26,160 nt of DNA from a virus. How positions within the stretch are numbered: the first letter of the stretch is position 1; the number at the start of each line of letters is the position of its first letter. The DNA lies in IMG/VR virus record IMGVR_UViG_3300021959_007695, positions 1 through 26,160 of that record, one strand, 5' to 3'. The notes beneath the pieces are model-generated. The model saw only the letters and a list, made by a program, of their open reading frames with translations. It had not been told where the DNA came from and searched no databases. Positions 304 to 24,631 of this stretch are shown here, piece after piece. Position numbers and translations under genes: made by a program.

Positions 304-338
304 AACAATATTGTATGAACATATATAGGATTATTCAA
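304..338 (-). promoter_or_regulatory. sigma70-type promoter for the helicase gene, predicted leaderless
   Basis: Reading the minus strand: TTGAAT (338-333), 17 bases, TACAAT (315-310), 6 bases (309-304), then the GTG start at 303. The -35 overlaps the end of the upstream gene. A start site 7 bases after the -10 would fall on the G of GTG, so the mRNA would have no leader. The same geometry recurs at four other genes here. Confidence 0.7.
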
Positions 339-681
339 CACCTATAATACGTACATGTTTGTTAAAGAACCGATTTGTTTTTTCTGGTATATGTTTCGTT
401 ATGTTGTCGATTGTGTCTTCGCGACCATGACATAGTGTGTATATTGTATAATCTAAGTTTACAGTCACTGTGGGTGCGTCGTAATTAAATTCAAACGGGT
501 ATGGTATTTCATAGTTTTTAGGTTCGTTTTTTTGATTCAACATCAACAAGCAAATACATGCATTCTTTTGTGACACCAGCAGTAGTTTACCGGTTTTGAT
601 ACTCTTATTACCGCATATAATTCTAACGTTACGTTGTAATAAATCGGTGAATGTATGTTCTATTTTTTCGCGTGTTAACAT
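331..681 (-). CDS. Unknown small protein, 116 residues
   Basis: I do not recognise this protein. It is a complete reading frame 3 bases downstream of the WYL_2-like gene, so it probably belongs to the same operon. There is no signal peptide or membrane segment. The N-terminal half (about residues 12-50) alternates hydrophobic strands around NVRIICGNKSIKTGKLLLV, which is the spacing of a small beta-barrel (Sm/SH3-like: strand, turn with Gly, strand). That fold guess is inference only. The C-terminus is basic (KHVRIIGVE). No Shine-Dalgarno sequence is evident in front of the ATG. The -35 of the helicase promoter overlaps its last codons. Confidence 0.6.
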   Translation of the reverse strand: MLTREKIEHTFTDLLQRNVRIICGNKSIKTGKLLLVSQKNACICLLMLNQKNEPKNYEIPYPFEFNYDAPTVTVNLDYTIYTLCHGREDTIDNITKHIPEKTNRFFNKHVRIIGVE

Positions 682-684
682 ATG

Positions 685-1059
685 TCAGGATGCCATAAAG
701 GCGATTTTATCTTGCTGGGACATGGTTACAAAGGTTTCGTTGAACACTCCCCAGAATGTATCATCACCAGGGTATGTTGTTATGATATTCACACTTTCCG
801 CGCTAACCATGCGGAAATCTTGCATGAGAATGTCCCATACTAAGCTCAAACCTTTACCTGACACATTGTAAGGGAACCCGGAACCGGATGGGGGCATGTA
901 ATTTAGAACAGTCCGACCATTAGTACTGTTGAGTATGGTACTGTCCATGGTGCATAACATTCTTCGAGTCGGTGTGACACCGGGGCGTAATCTACGGCGG
1001 TTGAATTTTATATCCAGTACATTGGACTGTAACAGACCGTTTAGCTGGCCAGGGCTCAT
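685..1059 (-). CDS. WYL_2 / DUF2693-like Sm-fold protein, 124 residues
   Basis: The pattern LLQSNVLDIKF at the N-terminus, then RRMLCTMDSTIL, then VWDILMQDFRMVSAESV fits the WYL_2 (DUF2693) family of small SH3/Sm-like beta-barrel proteins. These are common in T4-like marine phages and usually have unknown function. The conserved parts are the R-x-x-x-C-T strand and the V-W-D-x-x-x-x-x-F/W-R strand near residues 78-88. The ATG overlaps the stop of the GroES-like gene by four bases (ATGA), so the two are translationally coupled. A nucleic-acid or protein-docking role is possible from the fold, but nothing in the sequence proves it. No membrane segment is present. Confidence 0.6.
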   Translation of the reverse strand: MSPGQLNGLLQSNVLDIKFNRRRLRPGVTPTRRMLCTMDSTILNSTNGRTVLNYMPPSGSGFPYNVSGKGLSLVWDILMQDFRMVSAESVNIITTYPGDDTFWGVFNETFVTMSQQDKIAFMAS

Positions 1060-1493
1060 ACTACAGCATCTTCGCCGAGCTTTTCAAGCTTACCGAAGAT
1101 TCGCTGTGCGTTGATGAACTGTCCTTTCTTGACTGTGATGTATTCTTTACCGGATTTCACTATTAAATTGCTCACCGGTATCCCCATGTTGTTCGGAAAC
1201 GTTACATAATCTCCGGTGGTTGTAGTTAGTGCACTTTTGCCTTGTAGTATTACTTTACCAATTCTCCAGGCTTTAGGGTTTCCGTTAAGTGGTACTACGA
1301 TACCATCTCTAATAATCTCTTCTCCAGTTTCGAACCGGTCAGCGAATTCAATCAACACTATATCGTCTTCTAGAGACTCTACGGCGTAACCGATTAGTGT
1401 CGAATCTAATGAATCTTCATGCGCGGAGGATAAGTCAATTAAACTCTTGGTCGGTTCAATCGTGTCAATGTTAGCTTTTTGTTGGTTGGTCAT
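1056..1493 (-). CDS. GroES/gp31-like co-chaperonin-type protein, 145 residues
   Basis: After an acidic, low-complexity N-terminus of about 35 residues, the sequence reads as a GroES-type barrel. It contains GIVVPL, then WRIGKVILQG, then GDYVTFPNNMGIPV, and closes with GQFINAQRIFG. GroES and T4 gp31 share this order: a VxP segment, a glycine-rich roof, a G-D-x-V strand and a terminal strand. Gp31-type proteins cap host GroEL for folding of the phage major head protein. At 145 residues it is longer than GroES (about 97) or gp31 (about 111), mainly from the N-terminal extension. The start overlaps the upstream gp62-like gene by 23 bases. The assignment rests on pattern and length, so other small beta-barrel proteins remain possible. 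Confidence 0.5.
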   Translation of the reverse strand: MTNQQKANIDTIEPTKSLIDLSSAHEDSLDSTLIGYAVESLEDDIVLIEFADRFETGEEIIRDGIVVPLNGNPKAWRIGKVILQGKSALTTTTGDYVTFPNNMGIPVSNLIVKSGKEYITVKKGQFINAQRIFGKLEKLGEDAVV

Positions 1494-1866
1494 ATTTTGA
1501 TAAATCTAAATTTAGTTGTTCTTTATAAAGATTTATCTCCCTTTTGGATAATTCAAGGTTTTTAGCCAACTTTGATACTATCTGTGAGTCTTTATTTTCA
1601 GTTTTATGTTTTTTTATATAATTGATTCTAGTGAAACGTTCCCGTGGTACAATATAATGTAAAAATTTATAATGGTCTGATTTGCTCTCAAACACTTGAT
1701 ACATTGTGTTAACCGTAGTGTTTATCACATTACATGTTTGTTTGTTCAGCATGCTGCACCATCTGTTAATTAAAAATGGCTGGTAATCGCTTTGCTGATC
1801 AATCGCTTTAATTGATGCGGATTTTTTAGTGAATAATATATTTGATAGATAGTTAAATATGTTCAC
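1471..1866 (-). CDS. Clamp-loader small subunit, T4 gp62-like
   Basis: Near residues 29-38 the protein has YQPFLINRWCSM, and further on HYKFLHYIVPRERFTR followed by a lysine-rich helix. This order (a YxPFxxNR helix, then a Y/H-x-F-L-x-x-x-x-R/P-x-x-R-F segment) is what I associate with the phage clamp-loader A subunit (T4 gp62 type). That subunit works with gp44 to load the gp45 sliding clamp onto DNA. At 131 residues it is shorter than T4 gp62 (187), as is usual in marine T4-like phages. The start is GTG at 1866, overlapping the upstream DUF366 stop as GTGA. The partner ATPase subunit is not in this window, so the call depends on sequence pattern alone. Confidence 0.5.
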   Translation of the reverse strand: MNIFNYLSNILFTKKSASIKAIDQQSDYQPFLINRWCSMLNKQTCNVINTTVNTMYQVFESKSDHYKFLHYIVPRERFTRINYIKKHKTENKDSQIVSKLAKNLELSKREINLYKEQLNLDLSKYDQPTKS

Positions 1867-2456
1867 TTAACTATTGTTTTTGTTGTGGCTAGAAACATAT
1901 CATCATTCATTTGATAGAACATGTCAACAACCTCTTTCATGAACTGTGTAGCTTGTCTGTTGTCTAGACCGGTTGAGTACGCATGACTAGGGGCTTTGTC
2001 TCCAGCAGTGATGTTTATTCCGGTATGACCTAAACTTACATTATCTCTTACATATGTTATGCTCACGCTGCATTTACCTTTGCTCTGTTTGACACCACCC
2101 TGTTCATGATCTTTATGCACGATGATATCGTCCCCATCCACTTCGATTGGAGCATGTAAATAGTTAGAGCTGAGCAGGTTGGCTATGTTGGTGTTGAACA
2201 GTCGTTGCCAAGCTACTGCACCAAAGGCATCATTCAAGCATGGGATTTCCCATAGAAAGTTTATCGCATCATCGCTATATATAAATTCATTCTTTATGAT
2301 ATCTTCACTGTCAATCATTCCATCCGCTTCTACTAGCATGGGGCTCCTGAAGGCGATAATATTACCAATCGGTAATGTCTTTTCTCTAAAAAATTTATAT
2401 GCGAATCTATTATGCAGTAGCTCTCCGTCGTAATTTTCAATACTATTAACAATCAT
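1863..2456 (-). CDS. DUF366 family protein, 197 residues
   Basis: The sequence follows the DUF366 pattern along its whole length: YDGELLHNRFAYKFF, then IIAFRSPMLV, then DGMIDSEDI, then INFLWEIP, then QRLFNTNIA, then a GDDI strand, and finally CSVSITYVR followed by HTGINI. DUF366 proteins occur in archaea, bacteria and some phages and have no established activity; the conserved acidic and arginine residues suggest an enzyme. Here the gene heads a five-gene minus-strand operon that includes the gp62-like and GroES-like genes, and it has a near-consensus sigma70 promoter whose -10 ends 6 bases before the ATG. That suggests early or middle expression and a role in DNA metabolism, which is inference from context. 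Confidence 0.7.
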   Translation of the reverse strand: MIVNSIENYDGELLHNRFAYKFFREKTLPIGNIIAFRSPMLVEADGMIDSEDIIKNEFIYSDDAINFLWEIPCLNDAFGAVAWQRLFNTNIANLLSSNYLHAPIEVDGDDIIVHKDHEQGGVKQSKGKCSVSITYVRDNVSLGHTGINITAGDKAPSHAYSTGLDNRQATQFMKEVVDMFYQMNDDMFLATTKTIVK

Positions 2457-2491
2457 ACATATATTATAACTGATTAACGCGGTGTTTTCAA
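2457..2491 (-). promoter_or_regulatory. sigma70-type promoter for the DUF366 operon, predicted leaderless
   Basis: Reading the minus strand: TTGAAA (2491-2486), 17 bases, TATAAT (2468-2463), then ATATGT (2462-2457) and the ATG at 2456. This is near-consensus, and there is no room for a Shine-Dalgarno sequence after the expected start site. It lies in the only gap (38 bases) between the glycan cluster and the replication block. Confidence 0.8.
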
Positions 2492-2494
2492 GTG

Positions 2495-4097: not shown

Positions 4098-4831
4098 TGA
4101 ATGATTTCTAGTTCCTTAATTATCATTTGATCCCATGCAGACAAGTTAGAAAAATCCACACCATACATTGCTATCTTAGCTCCACTATATTTATTTTTGA
4201 TATATAATGCAGTGGCCGCTTCTACCCCAGGTATCCTACCAGTAGAAGGGTCATAGTGAGAGGTGTAATACTTTATATCCATTGTTTTAAAGCTTCTATA
4301 ATCACCATACACCCATGTTTTCTTGAGCACTTTTTGCTTATTATAAGCATCCCGGGTATATATCATAATATTATTATTTCCGGTATGTTGGGTGCAATAT
4401 TTACCCATATTATAATCTACTACATACATCCCATGTCCTTGAGCCTTGGCTGTATTATAATCGCCGAGAATAGGATATACATTATCAAACATTGATAGTT
4501 TTCGATTGTCAGTAGATTTAATACTACCAGTTATAAGAACTGTTGTTTCTGGGTTTAAATCAGTATATTTTGAACAATTCTCGATAGTTGTATCTATTTT
4601 AGTACCGAATCGTTGATCCCATCTTTTCAAGACAGTGCTAATATTATCAAATCTACTAGTATATCTATTCTCCTGAGGGACTGCTTCCGGAAGTTCTTTA
4701 ACTATATCACTTTTAGATTTTGTATATTTAGTATTTTTTTTGTAATTTAACTTCGTATATAGTTCATCTAAAACTTGCTGTTTTAGCTTCTCTTCAGCAT
4801 CAGTTAACTTATCAGAATTATTTGCAGTCAT
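4088..4831 (-). CDS. Unknown protein of the glycan cluster, possibly transferase-like, 247 residues
   Basis: I do not firmly recognise this protein. The first 60 residues are charged and helical. The remainder looks like an alpha/beta domain: strands such as [10 protein letters not shown] and [11 protein letters not shown], then a C-terminal [19 protein letters not shown] followed by [10 protein letters not shown]. The last pair (small-residue loop, helix, strand ending G-x-D-F) recalls the C-terminal half of DUF115/sialyltransferase-like (GT42-type) proteins, but this is only a resemblance. I place the start at ATG 4831, which has GAGGAA upstream; an in-frame TTG at 4837 is also possible. 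It overlaps gmd by 14 bases, so it is coupled to GDP-fucose synthesis. Confidence 0.55.
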
Positions 4832-5822
4832 TGTCAACCATTTCCTCTACTAACTGTTCAAAGGTTGTGACTGGATACCAACCTAATTGTGAGTTTGCTT
4901 TAGTTGCATCACCGAGTAATTCTTCAACTTCTGCTGGTCGGAAATATTTGGAATCTATAAAAATTAAATCATTACCCGTGTTTGTATCATAACCAATCTC
5001 ATTTACACCGGTGCCTTTCCATTTTATATTATAACCTCTACATGCAAATGCACGTTCAATAAACTCTCTAACAGAATAAAATTTATTTGTTGCCAGTACA
5101 TAATCATGAGGTTCTTCTTGTTGAAGCATTAACCACATACCATGTACATAATCTCTCGCATGGCCCCAGTCTCTTTTAGAGTCAATATTACCCATCACCA
5201 GGCGGTCAGACTCACCTTTAATTATTTTGTTAAGACCTAGAGTTATTTTCCTAGTCACAAATGTTTCACCTCTTCTAGGACTTTCATGATTAAAAAGTAT
5301 ACCGGTGCATGCAAACATGTTGTATGACTCTCTGTAATTTTTTGTTATCCAGTAACCGTACATTTTCGCGCAACCATATGGAGATCTAGGGTAGAATGGT
5401 GTGGTTTCTTTTTGCGGTACCTCTTGAACTAAACCATATAACTCGCTAGTACTAGCTTGATATATTTTAGTTTTATTTTCCAAACCGAGTATCCTCACAG
5501 CTTCTAGTACCCGGAGGGTGCCCATCCCATCAACATCCGCAGTGTATTCCGGAATTTCAAAACTCACCTTCACATGACTTTGAGCACCTAGATTGTAAAT
5601 TTCTGTAGGTTGTGTTTTTTGTATGATGTTTATAATGTTTGTTGAGTCTGTTAAATCACCATGGTGTAATGAAATCCTATCATATATATGATCTATCCGG
5701 TGAGTGTTTATCAACGACGATCTACGCACAATCCCATGCACTTCATATCCTTTATCTAATAGTAATTCTGCTAGATATGAACCATCTTGACCAGTTATTC
5801 CTGTAATTAGTGCTATTCCCAT
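4818..5822 (-). CDS. gmd: GDP-mannose 4,6-dehydratase
   Basis: This NADP-dependent short-chain dehydrogenase/reductase converts GDP-mannose to GDP-4-keto-6-deoxymannose, the first step to GDP-L-fucose. The nucleotide-binding loop GITGQDG is at residues 8-14. The catalytic set of the family is intact: STSELYG with Thr125 and Glu127, and SPYGCAK with Tyr149 and Lys153. The GDP-mannose-binding [10 protein letters not shown] segment is present. Length (334) is slightly below the E. coli enzyme (373). The gene is 10 bases downstream of the GDP-fucose synthase gene and overlaps the next gene by 14 bases. Substrate GDP-mannose must come from the host. Function is as certain as sequence alone allows. 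Confidence 0.96.
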
Positions 5823-5832
5823 GTTACATTAT

Positions 5833-6771
5833 TTACTTACGTATGTTTGGATATCTACTTAAGAAATGTTCGACTGTAGATGATATACCGGGTTCTAACT
5901 CGGTGAATTGCCCGGGGCGCGACCACTCCGGGAGGATATTGAGTAGCTTTGTATTGTCTGCTGTTTTTTTATACTGTCCATCACTAAACTTATCGTCAAA
6001 TACCAATGCATGTTCATAATCAAAAGCCCGGGCGATATATGTGGCAGCTTGCCCAATTGAATATTCAGCAGAAGGGCTCACTATTATATTTTCTTGATTT
6101 ATGATGGGTATGAGCTGTAAAATTATATGAGCAAGATCATCGGCATGTATGAACTGTCTTAGTGGTTTACCGGTACCTCTTACTTCGAATTTTCCTCCGG
6201 AGTTCTTAGCTAAATAACATTTGTGTATGAGAGCTGGTATCACATGCGCATCTTCTAAGTGGTAATTGTCGTTGTTACCATAAATGTTGGTTGGTATGAT
6301 ACAGTTGTAGTTTGTATTGTACTGACTATTGTATGCACGGCAATGCACATCGAGCATGCGTTTTGCATATGCATATGCATCGTTTGATTCATGCGGTTCT
6401 CCAGCATGTAACATGTCTTCATTTATAGGATATATTGTATCATCCGGAAATATACATGTTGATAACATACCTATAAATTTAGATACTCTGTGATGTGAAC
6501 ATGCTTTGATAATATTATAATTCATTAACATATTATCTTCAAACAACTGAGTTTTAAAATTCATGTTTTTGTACAAACCACCTACATTAGCCGCTAAATG
6601 TACCACACAGTCCGGTTGAGATATCTTCACAATATCGGTTAATTTATTAAAGTTTCTGAGATCACAATCTTTAGATGATAGATATTCTATATCGTAATCG
6701 GCATACATATTTGAAATATCATTGATTGCGGAACCTACTAGGCCCGAGCCACCGGTTATAAGTATTTTCAT
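5833..6771 (-). CDS. fcl: GDP-L-fucose synthase
   Basis: This is an NADPH-dependent epimerase/reductase that makes GDP-L-fucose from the Gmd product. Counting from MKILITGG, the Rossmann loop GGSGLVG is at residues 7-13. The catalytic residues of the E. coli enzyme are all in register: Ser104 and Cys106 (STC), Tyr133 and Lys137 (YAYAK), and His176 (HVIPAL). PTNIYG and RQFIHADDLA are also family landmarks. The frame opens upstream at 6804, but the ATG at 6771 starts directly on the first beta strand and leaves one base after the previous stop, so I use it (312 residues, close to E. coli's 321). It pairs with gmd immediately downstream. Confidence 0.95.
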   Translation of the reverse strand: MKILITGGSGLVGSAINDISNMYADYDIEYLSSKDCDLRNFNKLTDIVKISQPDCVVHLAANVGGLYKNMNFKTQLFEDNMLMNYNIIKACSHHRVSKFIGMLSTCIFPDDTIYPINEDMLHAGEPHESNDAYAYAKRMLDVHCRAYNSQYNTNYNCIIPTNIYGNNDNYHLEDAHVIPALIHKCYLAKNSGGKFEVRGTGKPLRQFIHADDLAHIILQLIPIINQENIIVSPSAEYSIGQAATYIARAFDYEHALVFDDKFSDGQYKKTADNTKLLNILPEWSRPGQFTELEPGISSTVEHFLSRYPNIRK

Positions 6772-6772
6772 A

Positions 6773-7642
6773 TTAGTATATATCTTGTAACTTACAACTC
6801 TCAACGTACCCAGCGTTGGCGATGTTATAAGTTTGTGTTCTAGAGTTTTGCATGTGCATGTGAAGTGTTTTTATATCCACACAAGGGTTGTATATTGAAC
6901 GTTGGTAATGCTTGTACACTTCACTCAATTTGCTGTCGCATGCCACTTTTCCCATATGTATTAGCTCCAGTTCTGATGGTATCAATATTGGTGTTTTGAA
7001 GCACCAAGTATCTTGTGAATATTTGTTAGGTTGTTCATGTTCATGAAATATTGATATATCTGTTTCTGATACAAACTCCCATCGTGTCAGAGCCAGGAGA
7101 TTGTTGTTCATATTGATCGATTGTAGTTTATGCACATCGTCTGTTACTACAATGTCTCCATTACATACACACCATAGCGCGCGGCTCTTCTGGGTGTTGC
7201 AGTATTCAAATAGTGTTTTGAAACTAGGTCTCCCATCATGTGGTACGATTGTCAATTTTTCATGAGGAGATATGAAATGTTCTATTTCGCCTCCGCAATT
7301 ATCCCACATAACGTGTACATGGTTAACATGTGGGTTGTTTAAATTTAGTTGCAACGCGAGTTTGTACTCTTCTACACGCTGTGGGTTTTTATCTACATAC
7401 AGACTAGTCAATATATTAACTGATATATCATTATGATGTTTATGATATGCATTTGTTACATGTTTTTCAATTTCTTTATAATTTATGTCTTTTAATCGTA
7501 TATGCCGGCCTTCAAATCTCCCGTTTGTTACCCAATGTTGCTCAGCTTTAGTAACATCATAGCCAAACGCCTGCTTCAAATCCGGGTATGAATTTAAATA
7601 ATCTATAAAATCAATTCTACCTATGTCCGGGTACTTTATCAA
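6773..7642 (-). CDS. YPD-module protein with a probable GT-A domain, 289 residues
   Basis: The first 46 residues form a module also seen in two nearby proteins: FIDYLNSYPDLKQAFG, then EQHWVTNGRFEGR. This Y-P-D ... H-W/Y ... G-x-x-E-G/N-R module is found at the ends of many bacterial glycosyltransferases; its role is not established. The remainder has an alpha/beta pattern starting ISVNILTSLYVD, with RALWCVCNGDIVVTDDV in the position where GT-A enzymes carry their D-x-D, so a sugar-transfer role is inferred. No membrane segment is seen. It lies between the GT-D-like gene (2-base gap) and fcl (1-base gap) in the same operon. Donor and acceptor are unknown. Confidence 0.6.
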   Translation of the reverse strand: MIKYPDIGRIDFIDYLNSYPDLKQAFGYDVTKAEQHWVTNGRFEGRHIRLKDINYKEIEKHVTNAYHKHHNDISVNILTSLYVDKNPQRVEEYKLALQLNLNNPHVNHVHVMWDNCGGEIEHFISPHEKLTIVPHDGRPSFKTLFEYCNTQKSRALWCVCNGDIVVTDDVHKLQSINMNNNLLALTRWEFVSETDISIFHEHEQPNKYSQDTWCFKTPILIPSELELIHMGKVACDSKLSEVYKHYQRSIYNPCVDIKTLHMHMQNSRTQTYNIANAGYVESCKLQDIY

Positions 7643-7644
7643 TT

Positions 7645-8565: not shown

Positions 8566-8569
8566 ATAT

Positions 8570-9484: not shown

Positions 9485-9504
9485 TTGGCCTTAGTTACTA
9501 TTAA

Positions 9505-9512: not shown

Positions 9513-9528
9513 TAAGGTTTTATATAAA

Positions 9529-12587: not shown

Positions 12588-13558
12588 AACAACCAAAACG
12601 CGCGTTCCCATGCATGTGCTAATGTACCGTCTGATTTTATAGGTTCCTCTTCAAATAATTTATCGTGTTCTCTCAAGTCTAAACTATTCTTAATATGTTC
12701 ACAGTAATTTGATGTACACCAGAACATTGTACCTGCATGGAACTTATATACTTTCATGTTATTAATATTTAGCTTTATTTTAGTGTCTAGAAACTTCAGA
12801 TTTTTATAGTTTATATTTGTTGATATATGCTTTTCTCGGATCTCAAATTTACTTACACTGGTTATGCCAGTGTCGGTATTATTTAAACAGTTGTTGTACT
12901 TACTATAATTCTCCGGTTTTAATAATCTTTCTAGATAAAACTCGCGCCAATTGTCATGTAAATATGTGGTTTTTTTAGTGTGTATTTTACATATCATATC
13001 ATAACTCTTATACCAAGAGTTGGATATAAAATTTAAGAATGATCTAACATCTCTACCCCTATTTTGTGTCCAATTCAATATGATATTTACATTATACTCT
13101 GCCCGGGTATTTTTAATCATTTGAACCGCGGTGTTAGTACTGTTTACATCACATAGATATACATACATATCGATACTGTCATTTACGTACTGGCTCAATT
13201 TAACTACATGATTGTACATCTCTTGAAAAAACTCCGGGTAGTATACATAACATACAATTGCGATACGTATGTCTTTGCTATCAGTTATATTTTTAATAGA
13301 TACATCATTAAATACTCGCCCGGTGATATCTTTCGCATGTTTATGTAATTTTAACATATGTTTACAATCTGCTCCAGGTTTTATATATTTACATTTACTA
13401 TATACTTGAGACACCAATGATTTTACAGACTCATCAACATGGTCAGATATTATATAAATATCACCGGTATATAACGGGTTATTTTTTACATAGGTGTAAA
13501 TAGTAACCACAGTCATATCATCATCATGATCATGTCTCAAATATACAGCTGAATTCAT
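12584..13558 (-). CDS. RgpF-like rhamnan synthesis protein, 324 residues
   Basis: The order of motifs matches the RgpF family (rhamnan synthesis F, PF05045). They are IAIVCYVYYPEFFQEM, then WTQNRGRDVRSFLNF, then YDMICKIHTKKTTY, then NWREFYLERLL, a GTMFWC strand, and TLAHAWERAFWLL at the very end. RgpF proteins act in assembly of rhamnose-containing surface polysaccharides and have a GT-A-like core. About 90 residues precede the core and are not recognised. The ATG is 5 bases after the upstream stop, and an AATAAATA octamer lies 6 bases in front of it. The sugar actually handled here could be fucose rather than rhamnose; sequence does not say. Confidence 0.85.
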   Translation of the reverse strand: MNSAVYLRHDHDDDMTVVTIYTYVKNNPLYTGDIYIISDHVDESVKSLVSQVYSKCKYIKPGADCKHMLKLHKHAKDITGRVFNDVSIKNITDSKDIRIAIVCYVYYPEFFQEMYNHVVKLSQYVNDSIDMYVYLCDVNSTNTAVQMIKNTRAEYNVNIILNWTQNRGRDVRSFLNFISNSWYKSYDMICKIHTKKTTYLHDNWREFYLERLLKPENYSKYNNCLNNTDTGITSVSKFEIREKHISTNINYKNLKFLDTKIKLNINNMKVYKFHAGTMFWCTSNYCEHIKNSLDLREHDKLFEEEPIKSDGTLAHAWERAFWLL

Positions 13559-13563
13559 TTAAT

Positions 13564-14367
13564 TTATTTATTGGTTTTAAAGTTTAAAATCCATTGTTGC
13601 TTGTCTGTATCTAGTGCATCGAACCATGGTTTCAATTTGTATGTATAATCGTATTGTAATCGATATTTCGCCTGAGTGGAACGAGTGCGTGTTTGACTCT
13701 CATGATGTATTGCAGAGACTTCATTTATATACCAGTTTATCCGACCGGAAATTATATATTTCATGTTGAGTTGTATATCTTCCCAACATTCAGTGAATTG
13801 TGTATCAAAGCCGCCAATTTCATCGAAAGAATCCTTACTAGTCATCATGAACGCGGCAGTGTTACCAGTAATCGCGCCTGTGTCATGTCTCTTATTGTAC
13901 TCTCCATATCCTCGATGTGTACATTGTAACAATCCGGAAGAGTCCACATACGCAATCTGACCAGCATGTTGTGTGGCTCCGTTCGCAAATTTCAAATGAC
14001 AACCTACGCTTCCGATATGTTTGTTTGACACGATCCAGTCATACATTGGATCGATACAATTTTCAGTGAGCTCCACATCATCATTACAAAATAGTATGTA
14101 CGGTTCTTCGACAAGGTGCTTCACTATGTCGTTGTTGTTTGCAGCAAAATGATACTCAGGTAGACTATACATCGCACAAGTAGGTTTATCAAACAGTGCT
14201 GCGAGGTTGGCTCGATTGATGTTGATGTTGACCTCGTCGCTGCCTGTGTCTCCAACATATATTTTGTAACTTGTGGTGATGGTGTGTTTGGCAATACTAT
14301 CAACACACTGTTTTAATAGTTGAGGGTTGTTCTTGGTCAAAATTATAATTGCAACTTGCTTGGGCAT
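13564..14367 (-). CDS. GT2-family glycosyltransferase, 267 residues
   Basis: This is a classic GT2 enzyme. It begins QVAIIILTKNNPQLL, has YVGDTGSDE in place of the usual DNxSxD, then PYILFCNDDVEL (Asp96-Asp97 as the metal site) and TGAITGNTAAFMM. Later come GGFDTQFTECWEDIQL, with the E/D catalytic base region, and AIHHES. It inverts configuration while transferring a sugar from a nucleotide donor. The reading frame opens at 14436, but the ATG at 14367 starts right at the first beta strand and avoids a 52-base overlap with the divergent phoH, so I choose it. It is the first gene of the minus-strand glycan cluster. I do not see a convincing promoter in front of it; one may lie inside phoH. Confidence 0.85.
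   Translation of the reverse strand: MPKQVAIIILTKNNPQLLKQCVDSIAKHTITTSYKIYVGDTGSDEVNININRANLAALFDKPTCAMYSLPEYHFAANNNDIVKHLVEEPYILFCNDDVELTENCIDPMYDWIVSNKHIGSVGCHLKFANGATQHAGQIAYVDSSGLLQCTHRGYGEYNKRHDTGAITGNTAAFMMTSKDSFDEIGGFDTQFTECWEDIQLNMKYIISGRINWYINEVSAIHHESQTRTRSTQAKYRLQYDYTYKLKPWFDALDTDKQQWILNFKTNK
13565..13572 (-). promoter_or_regulatory. Possible late octamer before the RgpF-like gene
   Basis: AATAAATA on the minus strand, with 6 bases before the ATG at 13558. It overlaps the stop codon of the upstream GT2 gene, so part of the match may be chance in AT-rich DNA. The spacing fits the leaderless late pattern seen at better examples in the window. Confidence 0.4.
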
Positions 14368-14384
14368 GGTATAATTACTTACAC
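14368..14384 (+). promoter_or_regulatory. Extended -10 promoter for phoH in a 17-base divergent gap
   Basis: On the plus strand TGGTATAAT (TGn plus the TATAAT hexamer at 14370-14375) ends 9 bases before the phoH ATG. A weak TTGCAA lies at 14349-14354, 15 bases upstream. An expected start 7 bases after the -10 leaves a leader of only 2-3 bases. No Shine-Dalgarno is present. Confidence 0.55.
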
Positions 14385-15101
14385 ATGAAAAAGAAAAAAT
14401 CTCTTCCGGAAAAACATCAGCTGGGTACATTGGCATGGGACCTGGACTTCAAAATAAATTATGAGTTTAAATCAAACGATATTCATAAAAGTTTTGTTGG
14501 TAGCATGTTATCTTCAGACTCTAAAATGCTGTTTGTTGATGGCCCCGCCGGGACAGCAAAGACATATCTCGCGGTTTACGGAGCGTTATGTTTGTTGAAG
14601 AAGCATGCAGTTGAAGAGATCGTGTACATTCGAAGTGTGGTGGAGAGTGCCAGTAACAAGTTAGGGAGTCTACCGGGGGAGGTTGATGATAAATTTTTAC
14701 CATGGAGCATGCCGTTGATTGAGAAACTAGATGAGCTTGTGAATATACCCGCGAGGAAAGAGCTGATGGAGCGTGGCTTCATCAATTGTTTACCGGTGAA
14801 TTTCGTTCGTGGGTTGACATTTCATGACACGTTTGTCATAGTGGATGAAGCTCAAAACATGACAAGTAGCGAGTTGATAACAATATTGACTAGGTTTGGA
14901 GAGAATACAAAATTTGTTGTTGTAGGTGATAGCAAGCAACGAGACATTGGCAATCGCTCCGGGTTCAAACCAGTGATGAATTGTTTTGACAATGAGGAGT
15001 CAGACGCTCATGGTATCTACAACTTTGTGTTTGGTGAAGATGAGATAGTCCGGAGTAAAATTTTGAGATTCATTGTGTCGCAGTTGGAGAATATTGAATG
15101 A
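14385..15101 (+). CDS. phoH: PhoH-like P-loop ATPase
   Basis: Counting from MKKKKSLPEK, Walker A is GPAGTAKT at residues 53-60 and Walker B is FVIVDEAQN at about 150-158. VRGLTFHDTF and the closing GDSKQRDIG are PhoH landmarks. PhoH-family ATPases/helicases are common in marine phages; a link to RNA turnover or phosphate stress has been proposed, but their role in infection is unsettled. Length (238) is usual for phage PhoH. The frame opens at 14349, but the ATG at 14385 follows an extended -10 and avoids overlap with the divergent GT2 gene. Two glycosyltransferase genes follow in the same operon, the first overlapping by four bases. Confidence 0.93.
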   Translation: MKKKKSLPEKHQLGTLAWDLDFKINYEFKSNDIHKSFVGSMLSSDSKMLFVDGPAGTAKTYLAVYGALCLLKKHAVEEIVYIRSVVESASNKLGSLPGEVDDKFLPWSMPLIEKLDELVNIPARKELMERGFINCLPVNFVRGLTFHDTFVIVDEAQNMTSSELITILTRFGENTKFVVVGDSKQRDIGNRSGFKPVMNCFDNEESDAHGIYNFVFGEDEIVRSKILRFIVSQLENIE

Positions 15102-16755: not shown

Positions 16756-16781
16756 TTAAGCTGTATAACAGTATATCTCAT

Positions 16782-16789
16782 CATAAATA
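16782..16789 (+). promoter_or_regulatory. Late promoter octamer, predicted leaderless
   Basis: CATAAATA on the plus strand, exactly 5 bases before the ATG at 16795. In T4 late promoters transcription begins about 5-6 bases after the octamer, so the first transcribed base would be the A of ATG or its immediate neighbour. No Shine-Dalgarno is present. Confidence 0.7.
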
Positions 16790-16794
16790 ATAAT

Positions 16795-17709
16795 ATGGCA
16801 GAAACACGCAACATAAAAGATCTACCTCAAGCAGATGCTATAACTAGCGGCGATTATTTTCTAATTGAAGCGCCGGCAGGAACTCAATTGTTATCATTTG
16901 ATAATTTTGTCATAGACCAAGACAACACCACTTTTGCTGTAGATCTACAAACCAACATGTCAACCTTGTCTACGCAAGTCACCGCGGTGTCATCTGATCT
17001 AGATTTGACCGGAGCGAATGCTGCGAGTAAATTGTACATTGTGAACACGAGCCTCACCGAGAGAATAGATAGCATGATCGATGTGCTATATGGGGAGACG
17101 TTTGAAACAACATTGCAAGAATTCCGGGATGCTAATGCGCTAGACCCGGAAACCGCAGAGACAAGAAATTATGGTAGTCATCTACAAGCATTGAGCGCCA
17201 TGTTGTTCGATACGTTCTGGACTAGAATGAACAGCATCAGTTCCGCGGTGATGGGAACCGGATCGACATCTATAACATCAGAAGGAAGGAATTTAATATA
17301 CACCAGTGGTGGGGAGTCCAATCCGGCAGACAATGACGGAGGTCTGTTAGGTGCTGTAATTGACACTGTTCGAAGCACAGTTGACGTGTATCTGGCCAAT
17401 GTAACGGGTCAGTTTGACAACACAAATACAGACACTGTACAGTTCAGCGTGACCATGCCCAGCAGATACATTGTCAACAAGGGAAGTTTACAATTTAATG
17501 TTGAACTAATGAATCAAGCTGCTATTGGAGATGCCGGAGACAATCCATACACCAACCCCGGAGTGTTCGCAGTGGCTAATTACAGTGAAGCACCAGCTGG
17601 TGGAGATGGAGTCACATACCAATGGTCAGTCAGAAGATGCGGTGGTGCACCATTCACAGATGCCACATATCCGATTAGATTGAACGGAAGAGTTGTAGCA
17701 GGAATTTAG
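16795..17709 (+). CDS. Virion/tail-associated structural protein, 304 residues
   Basis: The N-terminus ETRNIKDLPQADAITSGDYF followed by a GTQLLSFDNF strand is the short adaptor motif seen at the start of many phage tail-fibre and baseplate-attached proteins. The middle is Ala/Ser/Thr-rich with long alternating polar and hydrophobic stretches. The last 90 residues are rich in Asn, Gly and Tyr, as in beta-structured receptor-binding or fibre tips. No enzyme motif or membrane segment is present. It has its own late promoter, consistent with a structural role. The stop overlaps the stop of the convergent gene by four bases. A neck or fibritin-like protein is an alternative. Confidence 0.65.
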   Translation: MAETRNIKDLPQADAITSGDYFLIEAPAGTQLLSFDNFVIDQDNTTFAVDLQTNMSTLSTQVTAVSSDLDLTGANAASKLYIVNTSLTERIDSMIDVLYGETFETTLQEFRDANALDPETAETRNYGSHLQALSAMLFDTFWTRMNSISSAVMGTGSTSITSEGRNLIYTSGGESNPADNDGGLLGAVIDTVRSTVDVYLANVTGQFDNTNTDTVQFSVTMPSRYIVNKGSLQFNVELMNQAAIGDAGDNPYTNPGVFAVANYSEAPAGGDGVTYQWSVRRCGGAPFTDATYPIRLNGRVVAGI

Positions 17710-17918
17710 ATGTGAAACTTTAAAGCTTTGTTCATCTTTTCTAACAGAGCTTTGGGTCGTTGACCAGATTCCATCAATCGATTGTATTCAGCTTTGAACG
17801 CGTTCACAAAATCTTCGCTTAGTTCGAAATTTCTAGGGTAGAACTGTCTTCGGACGGTTCTGATACTACTAACATTTTCTTGATACATCTCATCAACATT
17901 TTTCTTAAACTGGTCCAT
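17706..17918 (-). CDS. Small unknown protein, 70 residues, late
   Basis: I do not recognise this protein. It is helical and charged (MDQFKKNVDEMYQENV ... NKALKFHI) with no membrane segment. The frame opens with a TTG at 17939, but the ATG at 17918 stands exactly 5 bases after a CATAAATA octamer, which decides the start. The gene converges on the tail-type gene, with stops overlapping by four bases. Late expression suggests a minor virion or assembly part. Confidence 0.6.
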   Translation of the reverse strand: MDQFKKNVDEMYQENVSSIRTVRRQFYPRNFELSEDFVNAFKAEYNRLMESGQRPKALLEKMNKALKFHI

Positions 17919-17923
17919 ATATT

Positions 17924-17931
17924 TATTTATG
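17924..17931 (-). promoter_or_regulatory. Late promoter octamer, predicted leaderless
   Basis: CATAAATA on the minus strand, followed by AATAT and the ATG at 17918. The spacing of 5 bases equals that of the tail-type gene and two other late genes here. It overlaps the frame of the upstream TTG start, arguing that the upstream start is not used. Confidence 0.7.
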
Positions 17932-17935
17932 CTAA

Positions 17936-18622
17936 TCAAAGCTTTCCGTCTGGAAAAACGTCTGTAGGTTCAATACCAAACTTGGATAACTCTTGCCAGT
18001 CTATCTCACAATCTTCTTCTTTGTAAGCTTCACCATTATCAGTAACATACAAGCTTGCTTGTCGAATTCGTTCCCGTGGATTACCAGTTATTCGAATCAC
18101 TGCTGGTTTGTCATCGTCATGAAAGAATATACTACCATCTTGATGAGAGTAAGCCTCTACTTGTTTGAACAAGTTGTCTATTTCTGTTATGTACTCTTTA
18201 TCTGTTTCCCTGAAACCATCTTCAACTATATCAACACTACCGTCTAGTGGTATATATATTATCAAGTCAACAAATCTCATGGCTTCTTTAACTATAGGGA
18301 TACATGACTCAATAAAATCTTCGTCAATATCTGAATTTTGTTTATCATAGGCATGAATGGAATATACCAGGTTATCAATAGGACATCTATCAAATACTAC
18401 ACATTCATTTTTTCTATATTTCATGTGCTGCTCAGTCATGAAATCTAGAATGTCTTGTTGTGTTTGTTTGGTTGTGTTGGCGCTGTGAGGTAAATTATTT
18501 TCTATTACAATATCTCTGTATGTTTTTTTTGGGGTGGTGTATACATCCTTCCAGTTGTCTAGAAAATCATTTATAAATGTACTCTTACCCACACATGCGG
18601 TTCCTATTACAGCTACTCTCAT
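17936..18622 (-). CDS. P-loop kinase-like ATPase (AAA_28/NadR-like), 228 residues
   Basis: Walker A is GTACVGKST at residues 7-15. A DR motif, VVFDRCPIDNLVYS, lies at residues 75-88, in the place where deoxynucleoside kinases and NadR-like kinases bind substrate. An acidic helical lid region follows. It probably phosphorylates a small molecule such as a nucleoside or nicotinamide riboside, but the substrate cannot be read. The C-terminal 40 residues are acidic and unfamiliar. The gene has its own sigma70-type promoter with the leaderless geometry, suggesting early or middle expression. Confidence 0.7.
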   Translation of the reverse strand: MRVAVIGTACVGKSTFINDFLDNWKDVYTTPKKTYRDIVIENNLPHSANTTKQTQQDILDFMTEQHMKYRKNECVVFDRCPIDNLVYSIHAYDKQNSDIDEDFIESCIPIVKEAMRFVDLIIYIPLDGSVDIVEDGFRETDKEYITEIDNLFKQVEAYSHQDGSIFFHDDDKPAVIRITGNPRERIRQASLYVTDNGEAYKEEDCEIDWQELSKFGIEPTDVFPDGKL

Positions 18623-18657
18623 GTTTATATTTTATAGTAAAATTGTATGTAAATCAA
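18623..18657 (-). promoter_or_regulatory. sigma70-type promoter for the kinase gene, predicted leaderless
   Basis: On the minus strand: TTGATT (18657-18652), 17 bases, TAAAAT (18634-18629), ATAAAC (18628-18623), ATG at 18622. The -35 overlaps the stop codon of the 44-residue frame upstream. The -10 is less close to consensus than the others, but the spacing is identical. Confidence 0.6.
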
Positions 18658-18788: not shown

Positions 18789-19155
18789 ATATATCGCGAT
18801 TTTCTCGTTGAAATTTTCTCATTATGACACCTGCTAGAGAGTTGGCTTCGTTCTCTATAGGACTACCATCGTCGCCACTCCCGGGAGATAATCTACCATC
18901 TTCATGTTGTTTTGCGTGTACCAATTCATGAGCTATGCTTCTGAGTATGTCAACCAACGCTCTGCCTTTGGTCAGCACCTTGATCTCACGTGTCACAGGA
19001 CTGTAACAACCAGTCGTCATGTCTTGTTCAGGTTCATCGACAAAACCAATTTTACATGGGGTCTGTATGTTTAAACCATGGTTACAAAAATCTATAAACT
19101 TGTTTAAAACATCTCGGTTTTCATATAACGTTACAAAATTTTTGAACTTGTTCAC
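18781..19155 (-). CDS. Zincin-type metallopeptidase-like protein, 124 residues
   Basis: The zinc motif HELVH is at residues 76-80 within SIAHELVHAKQ. Further on, GSPIENEANSLAG supplies a Glu likely to be the third zinc ligand, about 20-25 residues downstream. This is a minimal zincin core. Four cysteines lie in the first 50 residues. It could be a peptidase acting on phage or host proteins, or an inactive binding protein. The start is GTG at 19155, exactly 5 bases after an AATAAATA octamer. It is cytoplasmic, with no signal peptide. Confidence 0.7.
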   Translation of the reverse strand: MNKFKNFVTLYENRDVLNKFIDFCNHGLNIQTPCKIGFVDEPEQDMTTGCYSPVTREIKVLTKGRALVDILRSIAHELVHAKQHEDGRLSPGSGDDGSPIENEANSLAGVIMRKFQRENRDIYG

Positions 19156-19159
19156 ATGT

Positions 19160-19471
19160 TTATTTATTCAAGTTGATCTCTTTTGTGAGCTTAACCTCCT
19201 GGGCTTGATTCACACCTACAATACTGTCATATAGCCAGCTGCATGCTGAACTAGCTAAACCTATAATTATGTGCTGTGTGTAATTCTCGTTTGTAAAATG
19301 ACTCAGCACGAATCCGGACCAAAAGCCTATACATAATGTACATGTTAAAAAATCATCAAGTATACTAGACTTAGATCTTAACCAAGATCTAGGTATATTG
19401 AAGATACTACCATATACGATTATGGCAGTAGCGCCAGTACTAGCAACTAACTGCAACCAGTATGGTATCAC
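19160..19471 (-). CDS. Small membrane protein, DUF1360-like, 103 residues
   Basis: Three hydrophobic segments are seen: about residues 6-24 (LQLVASTGATAIIVYGSIF), 45-58 and 67-81. The second contains FLTCTLCIGFWSGFVL, and this C-x-x-C-x-G-F-W-x-G pattern is typical of DUF1360-type membrane proteins found in bacteria and many phages, of unknown role. The tail is charged and would be cytoplasmic. The start is GTG at 19471 with an AAGG ribosome-binding site about 6 bases upstream, unlike its leaderless neighbours. It lies 3 bases after the preceding stop. Confidence 0.6.
   Translation of the reverse strand: MIPYWLQLVASTGATAIIVYGSIFNIPRSWLRSKSSILDDFLTCTLCIGFWSGFVLSHFTNENYTQHIIIGLASSACSWLYDSIVGVNQAQEVKLTKEINLNK
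19161..19168 (-). promoter_or_regulatory. Late promoter octamer, predicted leaderless (GTG start)
   Basis: AATAAATA on the minus strand, then AACAT and the GTG start at 19155. It overlaps the stop of the upstream membrane-protein gene. The 5-base spacing to a GTG, rather than an ATG, supports a positional rule instead of chance. Confidence 0.6.
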
Positions 19472-19474
19472 TGA

Positions 19475-19672
19475 TTACCTTTTTTGCTTTTTCTTCTCTA
19501 ACTGGTCTATAGCTTGATTGAGCAATTTGGCTTGATCAATATCCATTCTCACCTTGTTACCGTGATCATCGGTTATTGATAATTGCTCATCATTCTCTAG
19601 ATTTACTACTGGGCATTTAGCTTTGCCGCAACACAGCACAACACCACCGTTTAGTTGTCTTAACATTGTCAT
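19475..19672 (-). CDS. Small unknown protein with CC-x4-C motif, 65 residues
   Basis: The product begins MTMLRQLNGGVVLCCGKAKCP, with three cysteines that might bind metal. It continues with LSITDDHGNKVRMD, as in a small beta-sheet, and ends in a basic helix. I do not recognise a named family. The frame opens at 19705, inside queE, but the ATG at 19672 is exactly 5 bases after TATAAATA, so that is the likely start. It shares a message with the downstream membrane protein (3-base gap). Confidence 0.6.
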   Translation of the reverse strand: MTMLRQLNGGVVLCCGKAKCPVVNLENDEQLSITDDHGNKVRMDIDQAKLLNQAIDQLEKKKQKR

Positions 19673-19677
19673 GTAAT

Positions 19678-19685
19678 TATTTATA
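19678..19685 (-). promoter_or_regulatory. Late promoter octamer (perfect TATAAATA), predicted leaderless
   Basis: TATAAATA on the minus strand, then ATTAC and the ATG at 19672. This is a full match to the T4 late octamer at the 5-base spacing. It spans the end of queE, so the small genes downstream can be switched on late and independently of queD/queE. Confidence 0.75.
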
Positions 19686-20460
19686 CTCCAGTGGTCTGAT
19701 CCCAAGCACTTACATGCAATCTAGTTAAACCTGTGTAACCATATTTTTTACCCATCTCCATACAAAATTTGGTACGTTCATGATAATTTTCTTGTTTATC
19801 TAAACCAGGCATCATCAACACACGTTTAGCCGGGATGCCGAACGGTAGGATAAAATCTCTTTCAATCTCTCTCAAACATTCTTCCGTACTTATAACAAAT
19901 TTAAACCAATAATTTTTGTGTTGCATGATACGCTCTAGAGCCTTGTCATTTATACGACGATCTTTACTCATCCCACTATTAGCTAGTTTCACTGAACAGT
20001 TGATTTGATTCAGTTTATCAAACAGATTATCTTCAATATAAATAGTACCGTTTGTTTCTATCTCGTTATATACAGATTTATCTTGATACATGGTTTTGTC
20101 GCAATGCGTGTCGTAAAACCATTGTAAGAAGTTAGATATCGCGCGTTGGTTTTTTGGAATTGTTGGTTCCCCTCCGGTCCATATCAAGTTGACACGACCT
20201 TGTTTGATCCAATCTAATATATTCTCTTCTTTCCATCTGTCCACTAGATACTCAAATGACTTCTCTAAGCCTTTTCTCCATACATACTCGGTATCACACC
20301 ACCATGTCGCTTCACCACTCTCTACCATACTCCCGTCTCTACCACCACACATCAAGTTACATGCTTTGAGTCGGATAAAATAAGCTGGAACACCGCTCGT
20401 GTGACCTTCGCCTTGTACGCTATAAAAATCTTCTGCTATGTTTAATGTATCTACTTTCAT
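19681..20460 (-). CDS. queE: 7-carboxy-7-deazaguanine synthase, radical SAM
   Basis: QueE converts 6-carboxytetrahydropterin to 7-carboxy-7-deazaguanine using a 4Fe-4S cluster and S-adenosylmethionine. The N-terminus EDFYSVQGEG is the family substrate loop. The cluster cysteines are Cys34 and Cys38 (KACNLMC) and Cys55 (WWCDT), giving CX3CX16C instead of the plain CX3CX2C, because a Gly/Ser/Glu-rich insert separates the second and third. LIWTGGEPTIP at 93-103 binds S-adenosylmethionine. Length (259) is within the family range. It follows queD by 3 bases in the same operon and has no visible ribosome-binding site. The product can serve tRNA queuosine or DNA deazaguanine modification. Confidence 0.9.
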   Translation of the reverse strand: MKVDTLNIAEDFYSVQGEGHTSGVPAYFIRLKACNLMCGGRDGSMVESGEATWWCDTEYVWRKGLEKSFEYLVDRWKEENILDWIKQGRVNLIWTGGEPTIPKNQRAISNFLQWFYDTHCDKTMYQDKSVYNEIETNGTIYIEDNLFDKLNQINCSVKLANSGMSKDRRINDKALERIMQHKNYWFKFVISTEECLREIERDFILPFGIPAKRVLMMPGLDKQENYHERTKFCMEMGKKYGYTGLTRLHVSAWDQTTGV

Positions 20461-20463
20461 ATT

Positions 20464-21093
20464 TTAAAAGAGCCATGAATTGGTTGTTTTGGCATATTTA
20501 GGGTCAACCCATTTACCTACTACTTTACTTGTACCTGGAGTTGAATTATCTTGTGAGGGTTTTTCCGATTCAGTATTTGGTACTGGTTTAGGTTTTACCT
20601 GTTTAACTTCTTGTTCAACTTCTTGGATTTGTTCTGTATCGAGTGTTGGTGCAGTCTTCGGGTAGGATTCATACACCGCGGAATTGTTTTCATGTTCAAA
20701 GACTTCTACTCTGACACACCTGGCTCTCATGTTGGTCAGTATTCCAGCAAAATTGTCCGCAGCTGCATGACACCATTCCGCGAATTTTTCAATACCCACC
20801 CCATCCATAATTTTTAAATCACATAATCCATTTTTTTGTAAATCTACAAATTTATCCAAATGAGGGTCATGCTTAGATATACATGTAGTATGGTCAAATT
20901 GATCTTGTAACAGTTTCTTCAATTCCTTCAAACCACCGAAGTCTACGACCCAGTTATTTTCATCTAATTCATCAGCTGCAAACCAGAATTTAGCAGTCAA
21001 CCGGTAACCGTGTACATATTTACAATGACTCTTTGCTAGCGGTTGTCTGAATGCGCAGCTACCTAATTCTATAATTTTGGTACTATAATACAT
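20464..21093 (-). CDS. queD: 6-carboxytetrahydropterin synthase-like protein with C-terminal extension
   Basis: QueD makes 6-carboxytetrahydropterin from dihydroneopterin triphosphate. The family pattern is present as SCAFRQ, then KSHCKYVHGY (Cys24, His28), WVVDFGGLKELK, FDHTT (Asp67, His68) and a C-terminal VEVFEHENN (Glu133). Compared with E. coli QueD, the zinc triad is altered: the HGH motif reads HGY, and the first histidine position falls near Cys13. A subgroup of bacterial and phage QueD-like proteins with SCxFRQ and HGY shares this, to my knowledge. Residues 150-209 are a Pro/Glu/Lys-rich extension ending in NSWLF. It has a near-consensus sigma70 promoter with the leaderless geometry and queE follows directly. 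Confidence 0.85.
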   Translation of the reverse strand: MYYSTKIIELGSCAFRQPLAKSHCKYVHGYRLTAKFWFAADELDENNWVVDFGGLKELKKLLQDQFDHTTCISKHDPHLDKFVDLQKNGLCDLKIMDGVGIEKFAEWCHAAADNFAGILTNMRARCVRVEVFEHENNSAVYESYPKTAPTLDTEQIQEVEQEVKQVKPKPVPNTESEKPSQDNSTPGTSKVVGKWVDPKYAKTTNSWLF

Positions 21094-21128
21094 ATATACA
21101 TTATAGTATAAATTTACACAGAAGTCAA
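21094..21128 (-). promoter_or_regulatory. sigma70-type promoter for queD-queE, predicted leaderless
   Basis: On the minus strand: TTGACT (21128-21123), 17 bases, TATAAT (21105-21100), GTATAT (21099-21094), ATG at 21093. The -35 overlaps the last codons of the 1010-residue gene upstream. It is the strongest promoter in the window by consensus. Confidence 0.8.
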
Positions 21129-24157: not shown

Positions 24158-24573
24158 GACATTAAGAATAATTTACACATTTTAGCGAATTCATCTCTTT
24201 CCACACCTTGCTCTTTCATGAATGATTCCAGATGTTGTATGTCACTAGAATTTATGATATTGTACATGGATGATTCATCACAATCTCCTTTATTTTTACC
24301 CATAATATAATCTAACGCGAACTGCTTGAACATTTCAAATGTTCTACCAGCTGCTGGTTCCACTTCATCTGGTTCCATATCAACAACACCATCGTCTTGC
24401 ATGTCCGGTGCCATCAACATTATTCTCAGCATGCCTTCGTTTTCTTCTATGATGTAACCTTCATATGGGTAACTCTCCACTGGGTTAGATCTATCTAGAG
24501 GGTCTGTTTTCATTCGAACTCTCTTCAGTGTTGTGTTGTTGAGAGCTTGCTCTAATATGTTGTTAAACTTCAC
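24154..24573 (-). CDS. Unknown protein, 139 residues, late
   Basis: I do not recognise this protein. It begins KFNNILEQALNN, an N-terminal helix like those on several T4-like virion or protease-processed proteins. It then has YPYEGYIIEENEGMLRIMLM as a beta hairpin, an acidic segment (MEPDEVEPAAG) and a helical C-terminus with three cysteines. The start is GTG at 24573, 6 bases after a perfect TATAAATA. It overlaps the 1010-residue gene by four bases (ATGA), so the two are made together and late, and may work together in the virion. Confidence 0.65.
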   Translation of the reverse strand: MKFNNILEQALNNTTLKRVRMKTDPLDRSNPVESYPYEGYIIEENEGMLRIMLMAPDMQDDGVVDMEPDEVEPAAGRTFEMFKQFALDYIMGKNKGDCDESSMYNIINSSDIQHLESFMKEQGVERDEFAKMCKLFLMS

Positions 24574-24579
24574 TACAAT

Positions 24580-24587
24580 TATTTATA
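24580..24587 (-). promoter_or_regulatory. Late promoter octamer, near-leaderless, for the 139/1010-residue operon
   Basis: TATAAATA on the minus strand, then ATTGTA and the GTG at 24573 (6 bases). It lies back to back with the folE promoter in a 58-base divergent region, giving opposite expression timing on the two strands. Confidence 0.7.
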
Positions 24588-24596
24588 CATTTAACC

Positions 24597-24631
24597 TTGA
24601 ATAACACTATAACATACTGTATAATCATGGT
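24597..24631 (+). promoter_or_regulatory. sigma70-type promoter for folE, predicted leaderless
   Basis: On the plus strand: TTGAAT (24597-24602), 17 bases, TATAAT (24620-24625), CATGGT (24626-24631), ATG at 24632. An out-of-frame ATG at 24627 lies within the discriminator and would be upstream of the expected start site. There is no Shine-Dalgarno sequence. Confidence 0.8.

Follow-up and report, generated by a model that had tools for sequence, protein, structure and literature searches.

An uncultured clade of T4-related phages probably often produces the first genes of its operons as leaderless mRNAs, a reading to which we assign a probability of about 0.87. The DNA analysed here, in its whole length referred to as the window, is the 26,160-base virus record IMGVR_UViG_3300021959_007695 (36.6% G+C), in which the start codons of five genes lie exactly six bases downstream of the -10 hexamer of a sigma70-type promoter. 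In related phages the same distance stands out, T4-late-type boxes (NATAAATA) frequently end five bases before start codons, and Shine-Dalgarno (SD) signals are nearly absent. The arrangement is genuine, conserved and specific to the lineage, and its simplest account is leaderless mRNA.

Five sigma70-type promoters in the window

The first-pass annotation of the window had described five promoters consisting of TTGAxx, exactly 17 bases, a TATAAT-like hexamer and exactly six bases before an ATG or GTG, and had stated that none of these starts has an SD sequence and that the arrangement is hard to explain by chance. All five are present exactly in this form:

301-338, minus strand: promoter and start of the helicase gene, with TTGAAT at 338-333, TACAAT at 315-310 and GTG at 303-301.
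2454-2491, minus strand: promoter and start of the DUF366 gene, with TTGAAA at 2491-2486, TATAAT at 2468-2463 and ATG at 2456-2454.
18620-18657, minus strand: promoter and start of the AAA_28 (kinase-like) gene, with TTGATT at 18657-18652, TAAAAT at 18634-18629 and ATG at 18622-18620.
21091-21128, minus strand: promoter and start of queD, with TTGACT at 21128-21123, TATAAT at 21105-21100 and ATG at 21093-21091.
24597-24634, plus strand: promoter and start of folE, with TTGAAT at 24597-24602, TATAAT at 24620-24625 and ATG at 24632-24634.

The spacer of 17 and the distance of six bases are thus shared by 5/5 promoters, four on the minus and one on the plus strand, with four ATG and one GTG start, and each of the five carries a TTG -35 element at a spacer of 16-18, as expected of a sigma70-type promoter. 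GGA, GAG, AGG and AAGG were found in none of the five stretches of 20 bases preceding the starts, in line with the statement on SD sequences. The composite pattern, made up of TTGA, N2, N17, TATAAT (up to one mismatch), N6 and ATG/GTG, occurs five times in the window compared to a mean of 0.138 and a maximum of 2 in 400 dinucleotide shuffles. When spacers of 14-20 were tabulated against distances of 0-14 (105 cells), the 17/6 cell contained five sites and each of the other 104 cells at most two, which bears out the earlier judgement on chance.

The six-base distance in relatives and orthologs

Related viral contigs were obtained by searches with QueD (53 loci) and PhoH (80 of 111 relatives retained). 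One of them, G001 (61.6 kb), matches the window at 98-99.9% identity over the aligned pieces; it was treated as the same phage and is therefore not independent evidence, while DNA pieces of G002 (68.7 kb) share 66-84% identity with the window. Further relatives are G003 (222 kb), G004, G005 and G008, and a more remote group comprises G011 (78 kb), G012 (185 kb) and G038 (83 kb). At E 1e-3, 12 of 19 T4 query proteins matched G003, 12 matched G012 and three G002, with no match in the window or G001, so that the label T4-like rests on the relatives. The nearest cultured phages are distant (terminase about 36-37%, polymerase 31% identity), and a genome scan with the polymerase alignment, made in search of a host, reached at most 31% identity in the 80 loci retained.

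For each sigma70-type motif pair, we counted the ATG or GTG codons opening at least 40 codons at every distance. At six bases, such starts followed 5 of 35 motifs in the window (background 0.22 per position; Poisson P 4e-6), 8/68 in G001, 11/74 in G002 (P 2e-11), 18/169 in G003 (P 1e-13), 4/36 in G004 (P 5e-4), 9/89 in G011 (P 8e-10) and 22/183 in G012 (P 3e-22). No significant peak at this distance was found in the control phages T4 (0/127), HTVC008M (2/119), P-RSM6 (2/96) and Syn9 (2/103), nor in phiM9 (0/6, with few motifs). Phage P23-45 of Thermus, a likely leaderless precedent, has two sigma70-type motifs, one of them at six bases, too few for judgement. The genome-wide scan proposed in the first-pass annotation hence returned the predicted peak in the relatives and no significant one in T4, HTVC008M, Syn9, P-RSM6 or phiM9. 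Without the -35 requirement, exact TATAAT stood six bases before a start in 69 of 362 cases in G012 (background 2.3). Weak signals also appeared among the controls, with exact TATAAT at six bases in P-RSM6 (5/212, P 0.02) and the reversed hexamer at six bases in G002 (3/125, P 0.02); the reversed hexamer also occurred at four bases in G012 (24/414), an excess that we read as overlap with TATAATAT.

The same spacing is conserved upstream of the DNA polymerase gene. An alignment of four polymerases yielded the best 80 of 497 viral loci, which, with the start fixed before the upstream was inspected, gave 56 distinct upstreams after removal of two loci (no start found or too near the end) and 22 near-duplicates. 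A -10 hexamer is located at exactly six bases in 41/56, at seven in 8/56 and at five in 2/56; other distances between 0 and 44 account for 0-6 upstreams each. At the 41 sites at six bases, TTG is found at a spacer of 16 in 18 cases and of 17 in 15 (together 33/41), at 20 in two, and never at 14, 15, 18 or 19. The logo of their -10 hexamer reads TATAAT, with T as sixth base in 41/41 and A or C as fifth. The 56 start codons comprise 33 GTG and 23 ATG. These upstreams are free of SD tetramers beginning within their last 19 bases; AGGA-type words are present at -23, within the promoter, in 9/56. G011, G012 and polymerase loci such as L345, L376 and L383 also show another type of promoter, in which an AGGAA(A/C) box lies in the spacer upstream of TATAAT and which is possibly a middle-promoter element in its own right.

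In a FastTree phylogeny of 91 polymerase rows (78 different), for which the program warned of long branches, 85 rows formed one clade on a long branch (SH-like support 100). Within this clade the distance is six in 63 rows and five or seven in 12, and two rows lack a callable start; as a start up to 30 bases away from the expected one was accepted for these labels, the figures lean towards a fit. Orthologs of the window genes, counted as distinct upstreams in sets that each include the near-identical G001, carry the -10 at six bases in 5/7 (helicase, with the other 2/7 at seven), 6/12 (DUF366, with 3/12 at five and 2/12 at seven), 7/13 (folE) and 18/46 (queD).

Late-type boxes, start codons and Shine-Dalgarno signal

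The proximity of promoter and start codon is not confined to the sigma70 type. The T4-late-type box NATAAATA peaks five bases before starts in G003 (27/119), G011 (15/48) and G012 (25/77), and is also found there in G004 (5/13), G005 (5/19), G008 (7/21) and G038 (8/21); in the window, 4 of 23 boxes lie at five bases and two more at six. The corresponding values in controls were 1/65 (T4), 0/38 (Syn9), 1/41 (P-RSM6) and 0/4 (phiM9). The six boxes of the window at five or six bases are:

16782-16797, plus strand: late-type box CATAAATA at 16782-16789, five bases before ATG 16795; orthologs 2/5 at five and 2/5 at six bases.
24571-24587, minus strand: late-type box TATAAATA at 24587-24580, six bases before GTG 24573; orthologs 1/6 at five and 4/6 at six.
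19670-19685, minus strand: late-type box TATAAATA at 19685-19678, five bases before ATG 19672; orthologs 2/3 at five.
19153-19168, minus strand: late-type box AATAAATA at 19168-19161, five bases before GTG 19155; orthologs 2/3 at five.
17916-17931, minus strand: late-type box CATAAATA at 17931-17924, five bases before ATG 17918; orthologs 2/4 at five, 1/4 at six and 1/4 at seven.
13556-13572, minus strand: late-type box AATAAATA at 13572-13565, six bases before ATG 13558; orthologs 1/2 at six and 1/2 at seven.

In T4, roughly one helical turn separates the late box from the transcription start downstream of it (PMC2988020), a spacing that would place a start codon five to six bases past the box near +1. 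Homologs of the gp55 sigma factor are encoded by G002, G003, G004, G008, G011 and G012; none was seen in the window or G001, both of which are fragments, and a query with T4 gp45 found nothing in any of the records at E 1e-3. The cultured Pelagibacter phage HTVC008M (NC_020484) shares the late arrangement, with 9/45 boxes at five bases (P 3e-9). Nine exact late boxes stand five bases before ATG compared to one in the reversed control, and in the first 50 kb an annotated CDS start coincides with the end of each of the seven exact matches. A paper on pelagimyophages reports that prediction of middle and late promoters failed (PMC7029224). The first-pass annotation had proposed leaderless translation for early and middle genes; the geometry on which it built holds, and the restriction was too narrow, as late-type boxes behave likewise at five bases.

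Only two codons are favored at these positions. When nine related records were pooled with the 80 polymerase loci, ATG was observed at six bases from the -10 hexamer 187 times against 8.8 expected from other distances and GTG 68 times against 3.8, while TTG (5 against 6.7) and CTG (1 against 3.2) were not in excess; this amounts to enrichments of 21-, 18-, 0.8- and 0.3-fold, respectively. As the pool contains near-duplicate contigs and G001, the enrichments rather than the counts carry this point. Five bases after late boxes, the observed and expected numbers were 135 and 5.2 for ATG, 18 and 1.9 for GTG, 0 and 2.9 for TTG and 1 and 1.2 for CTG. Leaderless starts of mycobacteria likewise exclude TTG (PMC4633059).

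The nine related records show no distinct SD-tetramer peak between -8 and -14; such peaks are strong in T4, HTVC008M, phiM9 and P23-45 and weaker in two cyanophages. The G content at -13 to -6 of same-strand genes preceded by a gap is 0-14% in G002, G003, G011, G012 and G038 versus 12-59% in T4 and 13-37% in HTVC008M. With genes called as simple longest open frames, operon-first genes have either promoter at 5-7 bases in 6/10 cases in the window, 18/35 in G001, 13/43 in G002, 35/143 in G003, 9/19 in G004, 9/21 in G005, 4/12 in G008, 21/40 in G011, 40/131 in G012 and 10/37 in G038, compared to 4/59 in HTVC008M and none in T4 (0/116), Syn9 (0/82), P-RSM6 (0/95) and phiM9 (0/148). The share of stop-start coupled neighbors is close to that of T4 (G003 45/209, G012 42/205, T4 51/214), so that coupling would account for only part of the downstream starts.

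Interpretation, host and significance

Taken together, these findings suggest that many operon-first promoters of the clade are placed such that transcription would begin right at the first base of the start codon, ATG or GTG. At sigma70-type promoters the start codon would follow the -10 hexamer by six bases, and at T4-late-type promoters, for which homology points to transcription by RNA polymerase carrying the phage gp55 sigma, it would follow NATAAATA by five to six. The resulting mRNAs would be translated by ribosomes recognizing a 5'-terminal AUG or GUG. About a fifth of the downstream cistrons, which also lack SD sequences, could use stop-start coupling. The leaderless mRNAs deduced in the first-pass annotation hold up in their core as a strong sequence-based prediction, which now extends to relatives through the six-base peak, the spacing at polymerase genes and other orthologs, and the enrichment of ATG and GTG.

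Several observations weigh against this account or narrow it. The window also holds a promoter-like site that departs from this geometry:

14349-14387, plus strand: PhoH gene, with TTGCAA at 14349-14354 and TATAAT at 14370-14375, nine bases before ATG 14385.

Here the TTG stands at a spacer of 15, and none of 11 PhoH orthologs has a -10 at six bases; the kinase orthologs, with 5/26, are the weakest of the five promoter-bearing genes. Individually, the sigma70 class is weak in G005 (3/23, P 5e-3), G008 (2/28, P 0.03) and G038 (3/85, P 0.02), eight of the 85 rows of the polymerase clade, G012 included, have no -10 at 5-7 bases, and the late boxes of G002 are found at seven bases (8) as well as at five (6/44). 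G003 displays a faint SD bump of about 4% per two-base bin. RNA polymerase requires a purine at +1, and the shortage of TTG could stem merely from this requirement. Finally, most operon-first genes have neither promoter at 5-7 bases (G003 108/143, G012 91/131), which indicates that leaderless starts are common and not universal.

The strongest competitor, which we still consider improbable, is genome compaction, where promoters are merely packed closely and leaders of one to several bases are translated without SD pairing. The minority of sites at five, seven or nine bases would fit this, and with the SD signal nearly absent overall short leaders would cost little; however, the peak is one position wide (41/56 polymerase upstreams at six, with 8 at seven and 2 at five), and at its position only ATG and GTG are enriched. 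That the start-proximal promoters are secondary, with mRNA arising mainly from upstream promoters or processing and translation mostly leadered, appears more improbable still. Roughly half of the genes lie inside operons, and some late boxes stand in front of such genes (4/21 in the window), but sigma70-type sites at 5-7 bases concentrate at operon heads (17/143 heads versus 3/128 internal genes in G003), and there is no SD sequence to serve a longer leader.

Two further explanations carry next to no weight. The TATAAT-like word might act as an A/U-rich translation signal instead of a promoter, given that bacteria not using SD sequences have A-rich start contexts (PMC6847099); yet a TTG at a spacer of 16 or 17 in 33 of the 41 polymerase sites, at 20 in two and at 14, 15, 18 or 19 in none is promoter geometry. 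Chance or reading bias in A+T-rich DNA might be suspected in a window with 36.6% G+C and 64 exact TATAAT words on both strands. Against it stand the shuffles, the spacer-by-distance table and the lack of a significant sigma70 peak in T4 and HTVC008M at 33-35% G+C, and it is refuted by the relatives' six-base peak together with the shuffles and the polymerase upstreams.

Leaderless mRNA, the reading we prefer, has close counterparts among bacteria. The computational sign by which leaderless genes of bacteria have been recognized is a TA-like box with its first T about 12 bases before the start (PMC3160421), and in the present phages the first T of the -10 box lies exactly 12 bases before the start. 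The TA-led genes of bacteria, notably those of Actinobacteria and Deinococcus-Thermus (PMC3160421, PMC4633059), resemble the phage genes in this position, in ATG/GTG starts and in the lack of SD sequences, and a positional -10 peak, starts without SD and only ATG or GTG were all found here. In contrast to those bacteria, these are phages, T4-late-type promoters take part and the SD signal is almost nil genome-wide. Separately, the candidate division WOR-3 chromosome CP070705.1 contains 39 exact matches to TTGA-N18-20-TATAAT-N6-ATG versus none to a reversed control, which suggests a bacterium with many leaderless genes.

Among phages, the lambda cI mRNA is a case of a single gene with no genome-wide arrangement. 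It is mentioned as a leaderless phage mRNA (PMC9031893), and phage transcripts have been called 'often leaderless' (PMC5312081). T4 late promoters and gp55 (PMC2988020, PMC2984593) share the NATAAATA box and gp55 homologs with the clade, whereas only 1/65 T4 late boxes lies five bases from a start and the SD peak is strong. HTVC008M resembles the clade in its late boxes five bases before starts and differs in its strong SD peak and the lack of a significant sigma70-type peak. Identifiable SD sequences are reported to be rare in huge phages with possible S1 proteins (PMC7162821), and lake myoviruses encoding ribosomal protein bS21 have been described (PMC9723584). The present clade is similar in its few SD sequences and, in some records, in bS21; the word 'leaderless' is absent from the examined text of both articles.

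A divergent bS21 is encoded by 9/28 related records (G326-G329, G332, G335, G336, G341, G343), with 7/9 proteins above the Pfam cut-off, and not by the window or its near relatives. The six phage bS21 proteins examined have W/Y-rich C-terminal residues. A profile built from 6/9 of the phage proteins failed to separate Bacteroidota (16 proteins, mean 26.6, maximum 30.6 bits) from Pseudomonadota (16 proteins, mean 19.8, maximum 33.3 bits). Exact matches to the composite pattern occurred in 46 of 118 sampled Bacteroidota genomes (at most six each) and in 39 of 142 Alphaproteobacteria (at most nine each), and neither survey pointed to a host. The reliance of the host on leaderless translation, suggested in the first-pass annotation, is therefore conjectural. 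The best matches of the window's FolE are phages of Bacteroidota (50-56%), a phylum that does not use SD sequences and has a -7 promoter element TAnnTTTG (PMC6847099). The polymerase -10 logo does not conform to TAnnTTTG, with the limit that only TATAAT-like sites had been selected. A Bacteroidota host, considered on the basis of FolE and the SD-free phylum, is thus no more than a candidate, as the promoters do not appear to be of Bacteroidota type.

Other features of these genomes were noted in passing. In the window, QueE-, QueD- and FolE-like genes (19681-21093 and 24632-25276), under the NCBIfam cut-offs, likely represent a 7-deazaguanine pathway, perhaps for DNA modification. A GDP-mannose 4,6-dehydratase gene (above the cut-off) adjoins a GDP-fucose synthase-like gene (below it) at 4818-6804, among glycosyltransferase-like genes. 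G003 has a tmRNA gene at L149:12277-12660 (ARAGORN hit and Rfam RF00023, 90 bits), and a 20-kb piece of G012 carries 21 predicted tRNA genes clustered at L170:10788-18893.

Leaderless genes and T4-type promoters are already known; their fixed combination, early-type and late, in a near-SD-free T4-like clade was not found in our literature search. Nor did this search, with subscription journals and preprints mostly outside its coverage, reveal any report of a phage with genome-wide leaderless starts. A bolder and rather unlikely proposal is that an aquatic T4-like clade abandoned SD translation and conducts its infection through leaderless mRNAs transcribed from host-type and phage-type promoters. 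It might rely on SD-blind host ribosomes that prefer leaderless mRNAs, or retune the host ribosomes (some of these phages carry bS21), so that leaderless phage mRNAs would outcompete leadered host mRNAs.

Studies of leaderless translation have so far dealt mostly with single genes or a small number of bacterial phyla. If the reading is true, the clade would be a natural system for ribosome initiation on a bare 5' AUG or GUG, and the pattern would aid in finding the host and in correcting the gene starts of many phage genomes from the environment. As the late half of the pattern is present in the cultured SAR11 phage HTVC008M, the reading is testable now.

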